A DNA stretch of 39,162 nucleotides from Gammaproteobacteria bacterium (GTDB taxonomy: Bacteria > Pseudomonadota > Gammaproteobacteria > Ga0077554 > Ga007554). The stretch covers positions 1 to 39,162 of the forward strand of contig JAGVME010000137.1 of NCBI GenBank assembly GCA_020053945.1, read 5' to 3'. Under the pieces are notes generated by a model. It was not told the origin of the DNA. It saw only the letters and a list, made by a program, of their open reading frames with translations, and searched no databases. This document shows positions 2 through 3,919 of this stretch, piece after piece. The translations under genes were made by a program, and so were the position numbers. Position 1 is the stretch's first letter; the number at the start of each line of letters is the position of its first letter.

Positions 2-748
2 CCAGTTCTCAATTTAGAAGGCTATCTGGCCACTATCCAAGACAGAATGCGATCTTCGCATTTCCCTGATTTTAAAAGGGAAATTTTTCAGCAGCTGATT
101 GTTCCGTTTAGCGCGGGGCAAGCGGGGCAGGTTCCAACGCCGTCTTTTTTGCCGCAGGCACGCTGCATTTTTGGGGACATTGACAGCACATCGATTTTTA
201 TTTTAGAAAACAATGCATTAACCTTTCAGACTACGGCTTATGATACGTTTGAGACCTTCTCAAGGACACTATTGGATGGGTTAAGTATCGTGAACGATAC
301 TTTACGCCTCGACTTCAGCGAACGAGTTGGGTTGCGATATTTGGATGCGGTGTTACCCCAGCCGAACGAGTCACTGTCAGACTACCTAATTCCTGAAGTG
401 TTGGGTCTGTCGCAGAAACTTGGTGGGCAGATGGCTCATTCCGTGAGTGAGACCGTTACTATAAACACTATTGGTCAATTAGTCTCTCGGGTTATTATCC
501 AAAACAGTAGTGCAGGGCTATCGGTAGGGTTGCCAGCAGAGCTAACGGCTTTTGCGCCAAGAATAGCTCCTCGTTTTACGCAGCCCGAAGGCTGTCACGC
601 TATTATTGACGTGGATGCTTTCTACGAAAAGCGCGAAGCGTTTAATCTGGAAAAAATTGAGGCTAAGTTGCTTGCGCTTCATGATGATGTGATCAGGAAA
701 TCGTTTGAAGTAACCGTAACACCTCATGCACTAGCGGTCTGGGCATAA
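2..748 (+). CDS. TIGR04255-family-like protein of unknown function (5' end outside window)
   Basis: The frame stays open to the left window edge (PVLNLEGYLATIQDRMRSSHFP...), so the listed ATG at 47 is probably internal. Features such as LRLDFSERVGLRYLDAV and the C-terminal ...DVDAFYEKREAFNLEKIEAKLLALHDDVIRKSFEVTVTPHALAVW resemble the sporadically distributed TIGR04255 family. Confidence 0.7.
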   Translation, partial: PVLNLEGYLATIQDRMRSSHFPDFKREIFQQLIVPFSAGQAGQVPTPSFLPQARCIFGDIDSTSIFILENNALTFQTTAYDTFETFSRTLLDGLSIVNDTLRLDFSERVGLRYLDAVLPQPNESLSDYLIPEVLGLSQKLGGQMAHSVSETVTINTIGQLVSRVIIQNSSAGLSVGLPAELTAFAPRIAPRFTQPEGCHAIIDVDAFYEKREAFNLEKIEAKLLALHDDVIRKSFEVTVTPHALAVWA

Positions 749-764
749 CAGAGCAGAGGGATAC

Positions 765-1403
765 ATGGCTACTACTTTGAGCTACGGATGCGGCTGGTTT
801 AACGCCCATCAAGCACCGACGGGTGCGCCTTCCGGGTTGAACAAAGCAGCAACTAACGTTTTTCTCGCAACTATGCTGGCCAGCGTCGGTACTGGTGCGT
901 TCATGGATGATCTCGACCGATGGCGGCAATGTCGGCTCAATGATCCTGTGGCCAATCCTTTCAGATCTCCGATTGTTGAGATAGTAGCGGAAAGAACCCC
1001 TGTGGAGGATCTTGGACGAATTCGTGAGGTTCTGTCCCCTGCCGTGTCCGATCTCGCCAACACCTTCGGTGTTTCTCGACAGGCTGTTTACAATTGGTTG
1101 AACGGGGAGCAACCGAGGCCGGAACACATCGCGAAGCTACGCGACCTTGCTCATGCGGCGGATATGTTTGCCGAAGCAGGTATTCCGGTAACGGGCGCTT
1201 TACTGAAGCGCAAGGTGATTGAAGGTAAAAGTTTGTTTGAGGTTACACGTGACGGTGGCTCGGCGCGAGAGGCGGCTCAATTGTTCGTGCATATTATTCG
1301 GCGGGAGCTTGAGCAACGGGAGATGATGGCGAGCCGATTTGCGGGTCGTAAAAGTCTCCGTTTGGTTGAATCTGATTTTCCGGCTGACAACGATGCAAGG
1401 TAA
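765..1403 (+). CDS. HTH-domain protein (central Xre/homeodomain-like helix-turn-helix)
   Basis: 212 aa ORF with VSDLANTFGVSRQAVYNWLNGEQPRPEHIAKLRDL, a clear HTH. It starts 17 bp after the preceding gene. Confidence 0.7.
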   Translation: MATTLSYGCGWFNAHQAPTGAPSGLNKAATNVFLATMLASVGTGAFMDDLDRWRQCRLNDPVANPFRSPIVEIVAERTPVEDLGRIREVLSPAVSDLANTFGVSRQAVYNWLNGEQPRPEHIAKLRDLAHAADMFAEAGIPVTGALLKRKVIEGKSLFEVTRDGGSAREAAQLFVHIIRRELEQREMMASRFAGRKSLRLVESDFPADNDAR

Positions 1404-1412
1404 ATAATTGCT

Positions 1413-2252
1413 ATGGCGGGGTGGACTAGAAAGACGCCATGGCGACAGGGTCACTTGCTTACGGATGAAGCTGTAAAGTCACTGGATTTGGTGCGTTCGG
1501 ATTATCCAAACGACACCATCGTTATCGTAGCCACTCACGACTGTGACCGTGCTCAACTCACAAATATTGAACCGCAATTAGAGGTGGTAATTGGTCGTCG
1601 AATTACCGACACCGATGGTAACTACACCCACGCAAAGACTGCTCGAATTCTTCATGTCGAGTTCGAAGGTGATGTGCCATTGTGGGTCGAGTTCATTATC
1701 ACCGCCAAGTGTAGTGTCCCCAAAGAAGCGCTGGTCGATTTCGAGCCGGCAGCCGGACACCGGCTCTCTCCATCAGGTCAAGCGACATTCCAGCGTTGGC
1801 TGGCATCCCGATACCGTCGTTCCGCTTTTCCAGATGAATTTGAACGTCGGCTTGTCCATGAAACCAAGCTGGCCGAACGCATCGCCAAGGCAGTGAAGCC
1901 TCATGGCGACCGGATTGCCGCTATATTGTTCGACGTAGACGAAGGGCAAGAAAAGGACAGAACCCGCTCGGACGATGTATACGTGCTGGACATCACCTTG
2001 TTGCACGCTGTTGAACCCGGTTATGACGCAGCTAAAGAGGCTGCAAATACAGCGAAAAGGGTGATTAAGGATGCTTTCGAGGCAAAATTGCTGGATAAGC
2101 AATCGGGTAAATGGCAGAGCATTGAGCTTCGCTATATCGATGTGGTTTCAGAAGAAGCGCTGACTTATCGCCAGTTTACTCTGGTGAAACCGTGGCGGCT
2201 GGAATACATCAGTTTGGGTGCTGATCCGCAGCAGCCTATTCTGGCTGAGTAG
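1413..2252 (+). CDS. uncharacterised protein with ATHDCD motif
   Basis: 279 aa ORF starting 10 bp after the HTH gene. Contains IVIVATHDCDRAQ and RWLASRYRRSAFPDEFERRL. No confident family assignment. Confidence 0.6.
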   Translation: MAGWTRKTPWRQGHLLTDEAVKSLDLVRSDYPNDTIVIVATHDCDRAQLTNIEPQLEVVIGRRITDTDGNYTHAKTARILHVEFEGDVPLWVEFIITAKCSVPKEALVDFEPAAGHRLSPSGQATFQRWLASRYRRSAFPDEFERRLVHETKLAERIAKAVKPHGDRIAAILFDVDEGQEKDRTRSDDVYVLDITLLHAVEPGYDAAKEAANTAKRVIKDAFEAKLLDKQSGKWQSIELRYIDVVSEEALTYRQFTLVKPWRLEYISLGADPQQPILAE

Positions 2253-2389: not shown

Positions 2390-2635
2390 ATGACCGATCC
2401 GCAGCAAATCCTAATCTACCAAAGCGAAGACGGCTCCACCCGCATCGACGTGATGCTGGAGGTTGAAACCCTGTGGCTGAGCCAGAGGCAATTGACCGAT
2501 CTGTTTGGTTATTCCAAACAATTCAAATTAGAGAGTGGCCGGGAAGTGATCCGCGAGGTGGCGCACTACAATCTGGATAGGATGCTGGCATTGACAAAGC
2601 CGCCAATATTCTTGAATGTGGTACAACCACCTTGA
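2390..2635 (+). pseudogene. RhuM-like (virulence protein RhuM family) remnant
   Basis: MTDPQQILIYQSEDGSTRIDVMLEVETLWLSQRQLTDLFG is RhuM-like. The sequence then jumps to a later block (REVAHYNLDRMLAL) and ends in an unrelated tail, so it appears internally deleted and truncated. Confidence 0.65.
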
Positions 2636-2671: not shown

Positions 2672-3919
2672 ATGTTGAAAGCTGAATTAATGGAAATCAT
2701 CGCTAACGGCGAAAACTCTGGGGTTGAATTCAAGCGAGATGATATTCGCCCAGAACAGTTGGCTAAAGAAATTGTCGCCCTGGCAAATCTTCAGGGTGGC
2801 AGGCTGATACTCGGCGTCGAGGATGATGGAACGATATCAGGGCTCCAGCAAAAGAATACTCAGGAATGGGTTTTGAATGTGTTTCGTGACAAAGTATTTC
2901 CTCAAATTATCCCATTTTATGAAGAATTAAAAATTGATGGTCAGTACCGGGTTGCTGTTATTACAATTGCGCCCGGCATTTCAAAACCTTACATGCTGAA
3001 ACATGATAATCGGGAGGAGATTTATATTCGCATGGGGGATCGCTCTGAAAAGGCTTCCCGGGAACAGCAATTGCGGCTTTTTGAAAGCGGTGGATTGCTG
3101 CATGTTGAAGTGCTTCCTGTGGCTGGGACCTCTTTGGCTGATCTGGATCTGGATCGGCTCAGCTACTATTTGTCAGCCATCATAAGAGACCCTGAAATCC
3201 CCAACACTAGCTCAGAATGGGAAGAACGTTTATTGGGTCTTGGCCTGATGGCTTCCGATGGGCTAGGGAATACAGTTTGCTCAGTAGCCGGGTTGATCTG
3301 TTTTGGCATAAATCCCCGGCGATTTCTTCGGCAGGCTGGGTTGCGTGTGATGGCCTTTGCCGGAACAGAAAAGGAATATCAAGCTTTGCTGGATATAGTG
3401 TTGGATGCACCGCTAGTTGGGCGATGGAAAGTCAACGAGGCCGGAAAAAAACAGTTGGTCGATGAAGGTTTGATAGAAAAATTTGCGGCAGCCATAGGTC
3501 CTTTCATTACACAAGAGGCTGCTGGTATTGACGAACATATGCGCCGAGAAAAGATAGAGTTTTATCCTTGGGAAGCGGTTCGCGAAACGGTCATCAATGC
3601 TTTGGCGCATCGTGACTGGACAAGGGCGGTAGATATAGAAGTAACAAATTATTCGGATCGGCTAGAGGTTATCAGCCCCGGAAAACTTCAAAATTCCATG
3701 ACCATTAGTAAAATGGTTGCAGGGCAACGATCACCACGAAACACACTTATTATGGAAATCCTCCGTGATTATGCCTATGTCGATTCACGGGGCATGGGAG
3801 TACGTACCAAGGTGATTCCACTGATGAAGAAATTTAATCAGGTTGAGCCGATATTTGAGGCAACAGAGGATTACCTGAAGACTGTTTTGCCGAGAAAACC
3901 ATGGGGATCACGATTGTAA
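2672..3919 (+). CDS. ATP-binding protein, AlbA_2 (Schlafen-like) domain plus HATPase_c_4-type C-terminus
   Basis: 415 aa. N-terminal GVEFKRDDIRPEQLAKEIVALANLQGGRLILGVEDDGTISGL is an AlbA_2 signature. VINALAHRDWT...VEVISPGKL-type motif and GMGVRTKVIPLM are typical of COG2865 proteins. Confidence 0.85.
   Translation: MLKAELMEIIANGENSGVEFKRDDIRPEQLAKEIVALANLQGGRLILGVEDDGTISGLQQKNTQEWVLNVFRDKVFPQIIPFYEELKIDGQYRVAVITIAPGISKPYMLKHDNREEIYIRMGDRSEKASREQQLRLFESGGLLHVEVLPVAGTSLADLDLDRLSYYLSAIIRDPEIPNTSSEWEERLLGLGLMASDGLGNTVCSVAGLICFGINPRRFLRQAGLRVMAFAGTEKEYQALLDIVLDAPLVGRWKVNEAGKKQLVDEGLIEKFAAAIGPFITQEAAGIDEHMRREKIEFYPWEAVRETVINALAHRDWTRAVDIEVTNYSDRLEVISPGKLQNSMTISKMVAGQRSPRNTLIMEILRDYAYVDSRGMGVRTKVIPLMKKFNQVEPIFEATEDYLKTVLPRKPWGSRL

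Follow-up and report, generated by a model that had tools for sequence, protein, structure and literature searches.

A conserved, mobile three-gene cassette with operator-like tandem repeats as a candidate phage-defence module

Toxin-antitoxin-chaperone (TAC) systems have a third gene next to an HTH antitoxin with a hydrophobic tail. Three genes also make up omega-epsilon-zeta of pSM19035, in which a small DNA-binding regulator acts on arrays of short tandem repeats (PMC4803016). The cos-proximal gpA-gpQ locus of P2-like phages is an antiviral hotspot that holds much anti-phage and some non-defence cargo, and the Rst_3HP system of the E. coli P2 hotspot consists of three genes without clear predicted domains that are active against P1 (PMC9122126). 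NCBIfam describes the TIGR04255 family as sporadically distributed and without known function. Here we describe a strongly conserved, previously uncharacterised mobile cassette of three genes, the first of which belongs to TIGR04255. Its closest functional likeness would be to a tripartite toxin-antitoxin operon such as omega-epsilon-zeta, used for abortive infection. The two differ in that omega-epsilon-zeta has an RHH regulator and 7-bp heptads whereas the triad has an HTH protein and repeats with a 12-bp period, and their toxin and antitoxin families are unrelated. The likeness to TAC is an analogy only; the third protein there has a SecB fold whereas gene1 of the triad has a predicted TBP/AdoMetDC-like fold, and the hydrophobic segment of gene2 is N-terminal.

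The window, by which we mean the whole stretch of 39,162 nucleotides that was analysed, is a complete contig (G000:C133) within a fragmented genome of 2.14 Mb. Three ORFs run in one direction from its left contig end (2-748, 765-1403 and 1413-2252). An earlier note made from the sequence alone had described three close, co-directional genes separated by 17 and 10 bp; the arrangement is as described, and the gaps are in fact 16 bp (gene1/gene2) and 9 bp (gene2/gene3). The features of the locus are as follows.

1 to 32, no strand assigned: overlap with contig C101, an exact 32-bp identity with the 3' end of that contig, which carries the operator and hemL
2 to 748, plus strand, open at the left contig end: gene1, TIGR04255 family; the 3' 248 codons lie in the window and the first 20 codons (MGKKMNNAPAYFTIAQVRFN) on C101
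765 to 1403, plus strand: gene2, HTH protein of 212 aa, characterised by sub-cut-off HTH_3, YdaS and HTH_28 matches, alignment, hydropathy and residue counts
1413 to 2252, plus strand: gene3, 279 aa, characterised by an AF2 model, Foldseek against PDB and BFVD, and residue counts
2390 to 2635, plus strand: chimeric remnant, of which residues 1-44 are RhuM/PDC-S05-type (PADLOC PDC-S05, 1.2e-15) and the sequence after them is unrelated
2672 to 3919, plus strand: Schlafen/AlbA_2 and HATPase_c_4 protein of 415 aa (PF04326, 2.3e-23; PF13749, 1e-15), outside the cassette

The open 5' end of gene1 was recovered from contig C101, which was pinpointed by the motif of the tandem repeats described below: TGTMAA-N6-TGTMAA has a single site in the 2.14 Mb of this genome, and the two overlapping matches returned there form one four-unit array. 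This array, TGTCAACCATAG-TGTAAAG-TGTAAACTCGAT-TGTAAAC, lies between hemL and gene1 at about C101:14963-15000, which puts it ~78-115 bp ahead of window base 1, with ~110 bp left to the end of C101. The last 32 bp of C101 are identical to the first 32 bp of the window, and the join completes gene1 in frame as a protein of 268 aa (MGKKMNNAPAYFTIAQVRFNPVLNLEGYL...) that starts 59 bp before window base 1. The leftward extension called for earlier thus yielded the true start of gene1, and there is no fourth gene on this side because the operator and hemL lie directly upstream. On the left, DNA homology to the congeneric genome G400 breaks off at the hemL stop codon, and on the right it returns at window position 2593, which marks the cassette and some debris as a strain-specific insertion of ~2.8 kb. 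The cassette itself extends from the operator to the gene3 stop codon (~2.4 kb).

The right edge of this insertion, at ~2593, falls inside the ORF at 2390-2635. Between the cassette and the conserved flank (2253-2592) lies debris consisting of an orphan peptide of 30 aa and the N-terminal 44 residues of a RhuM-type protein, which are probably the scars of earlier insertions. Remnants of both helicase and RhuM-type genes had been proposed beside the cassette; the RhuM assignment stands (PDC-S05, ~1e-15, residues 1-44 of the ORF at 2390-2635), and the helicase assignment was not confirmed, as the 30-aa peptide had no match. The Schlafen-type gene further downstream is intact, with a RecG-like C-terminus and weak PADLOC pAgo/Aga-type matches. 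It predates the cassette, because it is common to G400.

Conservation of the triad was assessed in a non-redundant set of 55 gene3 homologues that were near full-length and had 1.5 kb or more of sequence upstream. Gene2 adjoined gene3 in all 55 and gene1 in 54, so the gene arrangement is not due to chance. These counts fully support the operon-like accessory cassette of the earlier note and exclude that homologues of the three proteins rarely co-occur. Plasmid searches with tblastn recovered the triad, identical in gene order and strand, in records of Klebsiella, Pseudomonas (two), Meiothermus, Robbsia, Gloeocapsa, Gloeocapsopsis, Acinetobacter and Vibrio (two); the flanks differed in each plasmid record. 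A scan of IMG/VR gave 26 contigs, nearly all with a complete triad, and among sampled genomes the triad was present in 8 of 399 from the phylum and in 13 of 370 from the class (~2-3.5%). The carriers are plasmids, prophages and chromosomes of Pseudomonadota, Deinococcota, Cyanobacteriota and Desulfobacterota, a phylum list drawn from named records.

Departures from the complete triad were few. Intact gene3 never occurred without gene2 where at least 1.5 kb of upstream sequence was present, and the sole gene3 with upstream sequence and neither partner (L003, ~1.5 kb to the contig end) is missing its first 28 residues. In one copy under decay (L077/L096) each of the three genes survives only in fragments, and gene3 contains stops. 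Gene1 is not strictly required, because gene2-gene3 persist alone at L082:9180-10684, where they are flanked by housekeeping genes and the N-terminus of gene2 is altered. Two further records are noted for themselves. One IMG/VR contig holds a divergent triad in which an IS-type transposase gene splits gene2 from gene3 (L039:4722-5702). Another record, listed among those of 'Acinetobacter phage MD-2021a' (L013, CAKLQF020000006.1), is a contig of 207 kb that carries ordinary genes of bacteria (MFS, OmpA-type) and is probably a mislabelled chromosome.

Upstream of gene1 we found direct repeats of ~8 bp (TGTxAAx) with a 12-bp period, typically TGTCAACC-nnnn-TGTAAACT, which are often doubled to four units spaced 12-7-12, giving 2-4 copies and ~50 bp in all. 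With identity of at least 6/7 at spacing 12 as the criterion, a repeat pair was present in 51 of 54 triads, whereas 60 shuffles gave 8 on average and never more than 13. Neighbouring spacings were not enriched, and a spacing of 19 (12+7) was (21/54). When the set was thinned to gene3 identity <40%, the repeat was found in 17 of 20 clusters, 14 of them with a perfect 7/7 match versus 0.2 expected. The unit itself differs among lineages (TGTMAAC, TGTCTAA, TGTATAG, TGTAAGG, TGTGCAA, TGGGTAA), with both copies changing in step, and the distance between operators correlated with that between recognition helices even when gene3 distance was taken into account (partial Mantel r 0.27, p 0.001, 44 loci; such p-values may be too small).

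The repeats also located the cassette blind. Scanning IMG/VR with TGTCAACCNNNNTGTAAACTG returned 15 stretches, 11 of which lay directly before a triad, including two triads previously unseen (L141, L149); two of the other four were within coding sequence and two were intergenic, with no shared neighbour. That the repeats are transposon ends was rejected on this distribution, in which most matches directly precede the triad and the remainder have no common context. A repeat operator was present in none of 12 TIGR04255 genes outside triads, no shared palindrome of the inverted-repeat kind was seen upstream of gene1, and a consensus sigma-70 promoter scan near the repeats found nothing. Judged from sequence, the parsimonious reading is that the repeats are an operator that gene2 would bind in cis. 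Its covariation with the HTH points to cis autoregulation by gene2 and strengthens the earlier suggestion that gene2 is a DNA-binding component, and the single operator site in the genome argues for cis-only control. Type II toxin-antitoxin systems are small operons in which a DNA-binding partner autoregulates through an operator; the triad has operator-like repeats that covary with its HTH protein, and gene2 may bind them and repress.

The XRE-type HTH of gene2 begins at about residue 94 and reaches to about residue 115-125; HTH_3, YdaS and HTH_28 all scored under their Pfam gathering cut-offs, and a PDB sequence-profile search gave generic HTHs only. Residues R105 and W111 are conserved in 56 of 58 sequences, and the C-terminal part is conserved in the alignment. 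A hydrophobic N-terminal segment at residues ~28-44 (window 849-896, for example) usually ends in GTG or STG, and by hydropathy the N-terminus of several members is not hydrophobic. This stretch sits in an otherwise cytoplasmic-looking HTH protein. It is possibly a membrane anchor or a partner-binding arm.

Gene1 matched NCBIfam TIGR04255 well above the family cut-off (E 3.7e-31; 108.8 bits against 30; profile positions 20-250 of 252). The AF2 model of a homologue (L002; pLDDT 87) has a duplicated beta-alpha-beta fold, and this predicted structure bears a weak likeness to AdoMetDC and TBP. Conserved residues were R108-x-G110-x-R112-Y113 and D203-x-D205 (window numbering). Most TIGR04255 genes sampled lie outside triads and have no repeat operator, and the gene1 members of triads are a distinct subgroup of the family. 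A second TIGR04255 gene of the same genome (G000:C97:4661-5395, L159) is followed by a different partner of 161 aa and likewise has no repeat operator. Several types of cassette may make use of TIGR04255 proteins.

Gene3 had no match in Pfam or NCBIfam and none that was meaningful in PADLOC; its sole family match was PHROG 34320 (5.5e-8), which has no assigned function, and PDB sequence-profile searches gave only chance matches for gene1 and gene3 alike. Structure prediction had been proposed as a check. In the AF2 model (pLDDT 80, pTM 0.57) a long helix closes off a barrel at the N-terminus, a putative PemK/MazF-like SH3-barrel at residues ~1-135, and an alpha/beta part follows. Foldseek against PDB matched MazF toxins (prob 0.98/0.97, TMt 0.59, E 0.026-0.058) and CptN (4rmo, prob 0.87), and against BFVD it matched Endoribonuclease / PemK-like proteins (prob 0.99/0.91/0.85). 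Sequence homology was not found: hhalign of gene3 with 20 PemK relatives (PF02452) gave no signal (probability 0.1-0.9%), 15 members tested for PF02452 homology had no Pfam match even at E 10, and the MazF catalytic Arg/Thr were not evident. Because the Foldseek E-values were 0.02 or worse and hhalign was blank, the likeness to MazF is one of fold and not of membership, and gene3 is not assigned to PF02452. Gene3 departs from the PemK/MazF/CcdB-fold toxins, which its N-terminal half resembles in two structure libraries, by carrying a further ~140 aa as a C-terminal domain and by its invariant Cys, which lies in the loop that follows the second strand.

This cysteine, C44, and W129 were invariant in all 59 sequences, and W10, Q12, G13, R78, F143 and Y190 were nearly so. 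C44 belongs to the ATHDCD motif that the earlier note had picked out as a conserved Cys/His/Asp set, possibly catalytic or metal-binding. The motif is present; as a conserved set it is unsupported, because only C44 is invariant (H42 is kept in 43 of 59, D43 in 42 and D45 in 52). Cys44 is likely the functional centre of gene3.

The surroundings of the triad bear on its function. In at least nine prophage contigs of IMG/VR (L021, L023, L028, L029, L030, L032, L033, L034 and L035), some of them close relatives of one another, the triad is flanked by the replication gene gpA on one side and the portal gene on the other, which is the cos-proximal hotspot of P2-like phages (PMC9122126), and its portal side is visible in four more (L018, L019, L026, L031). 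Members tested carried Pfam Phage_GPA, Phage_portal and gpP-like terminase. Elsewhere the triad neighbours a retron I-A ATPase and RT, AbiLi, Fic and DNA methylases, and type I restriction genes flank it on Meiothermus and Acinetobacter plasmids. The triad is thereby recurrently located in a defence hotspot, a feature of anti-phage systems. PADLOC families near triads numbered 358 compared with 129 near controls, which is only suggestive because the tally is by family, not by protein, and the controls held genes matching defence models as well. Genes 1-3 themselves had no significant match among known PADLOC systems (2023). Overall, position in the P2 gpA-gpQ hotspot and among such neighbours lends support to the still hypothetical defence role of the earlier note. 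The triad is probably a new defence or toxin-antitoxin-like system, and defence is the best-supported function for which it is a candidate.

We hypothesize, with slightly less than even confidence, that the triad is a self-contained, autoregulated, horizontally mobile, toxin-antitoxin-like phage-defence cassette. Gene2 would bind the 12-bp-spaced repeats before gene1 and keep the operon low. Gene3, with its PemK/MazF-like barrel and extra C-terminal domain, would be the effector, which on release would probably harm the cell or else phage RNA or translation. Gene2 would also be the obligate partner that restrains gene3, possibly via the hydrophobic GTG-tipped N-terminal segment, and gene1 would be a sensor or adaptor that couples the gene2-gene3 pair to infection. 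Invasion would disturb gene1-gene2, gene3 would be freed and the infection would be aborted. The order of an HTH gene followed by gene3 resembles that of many antitoxin-toxin pairs. A more specific form of this model, which we regard as unlikely but credible, is a tripartite immune module of a new type, in which the repeat-bound HTH protein would restrain, by its GTG-tipped arm, a PemK-fold effector that uses the invariant Cys and not the MazF active site, and in which the TIGR04255 protein (TBP/AdoMetDC-like fold, R-x-G-x-R-Y, D-x-D) would be a phage sensor or signal enzyme.

An addiction or stabilisation module is a serious, if doubtful, alternative: a putative three-gene toxin-antitoxin operon would maintain plasmids and prophages without dedicated phage sensing. 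The presence of the triad on many large plasmids and prophages fits this, as do the PemK-like fold of gene3 and a tandem-repeat autoregulation like that of tripartite toxin-antitoxin operons such as omega-epsilon-zeta (PMC4803016), whereas the triad is also chromosomal, in ~2-3.5% of genomes, and occupies a defence hotspot with much anti-phage cargo (PMC9122126). We think it quite unlikely that the triad is instead a non-toxic module for regulation or phage competition, acting for example in superinfection exclusion, in anti-defence or in the control of a prophage function, with gene3 as an enzyme. The invariant Cys44 and conserved R78 could be enzymatic, PHROG 34320 places relatives of gene3 among phage proteins, and P2-type hotspots hold non-defence cargo too (PMC9122126); the single operator site, however, argues for control in cis only, and a role in the biology of one phage is disfavoured by the spread over plasmids, chromosomes and several prophage types.

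On indirect evidence, it is very unlikely that the triad is Rst_3HP. Locus type and gene number are shared with this system and other gpA-gpQ cargo, but the authors' HHpred screen of Rst_3HP gave no clear domain (PMC9122126), whereas the HTH of gene2 is recognisable. In addition, three different cassettes had no DNA match in 5,426 E. coli genomes, and no model of PADLOC 2.0.0, which may or may not include Rst_3HP, matched the triad. Least probable is a type III toxin-antitoxin system, with the upstream repeats as RNA antitoxin and gene3 as a ToxN/CptN-like RNase: CptN is among the fold matches of gene3 and tandem repeats do precede the operon, but type III repeats are pseudoknots of ~35 nt directly before the toxin gene, whereas those of the triad measure 8 bp, recur every 12 bp (2-4 copies, ~50 bp in all) and lie before gene1, two genes upstream of gene3, and covary in sequence with the HTH helix, so that ToxIN/CptIN membership was rejected on repeats too short and wrongly placed.

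The preferred reading, a toxin-antitoxin-like candidate for phage defence, brings three separate 'hypothetical proteins' together as a single defined and testable system with set borders. The repeats are a DNA signature by which further copies of the cassette can be found blind, and the predicted effector, gene3, offers a single invariant Cys for mutation. Repeat units that drift with the HTH provide a ready case for the co-evolution of an autoregulator and its operator. If the reading is true, one branch of TIGR04255 would receive its first function, and the prophage-borne defence repertoire would gain a candidate.
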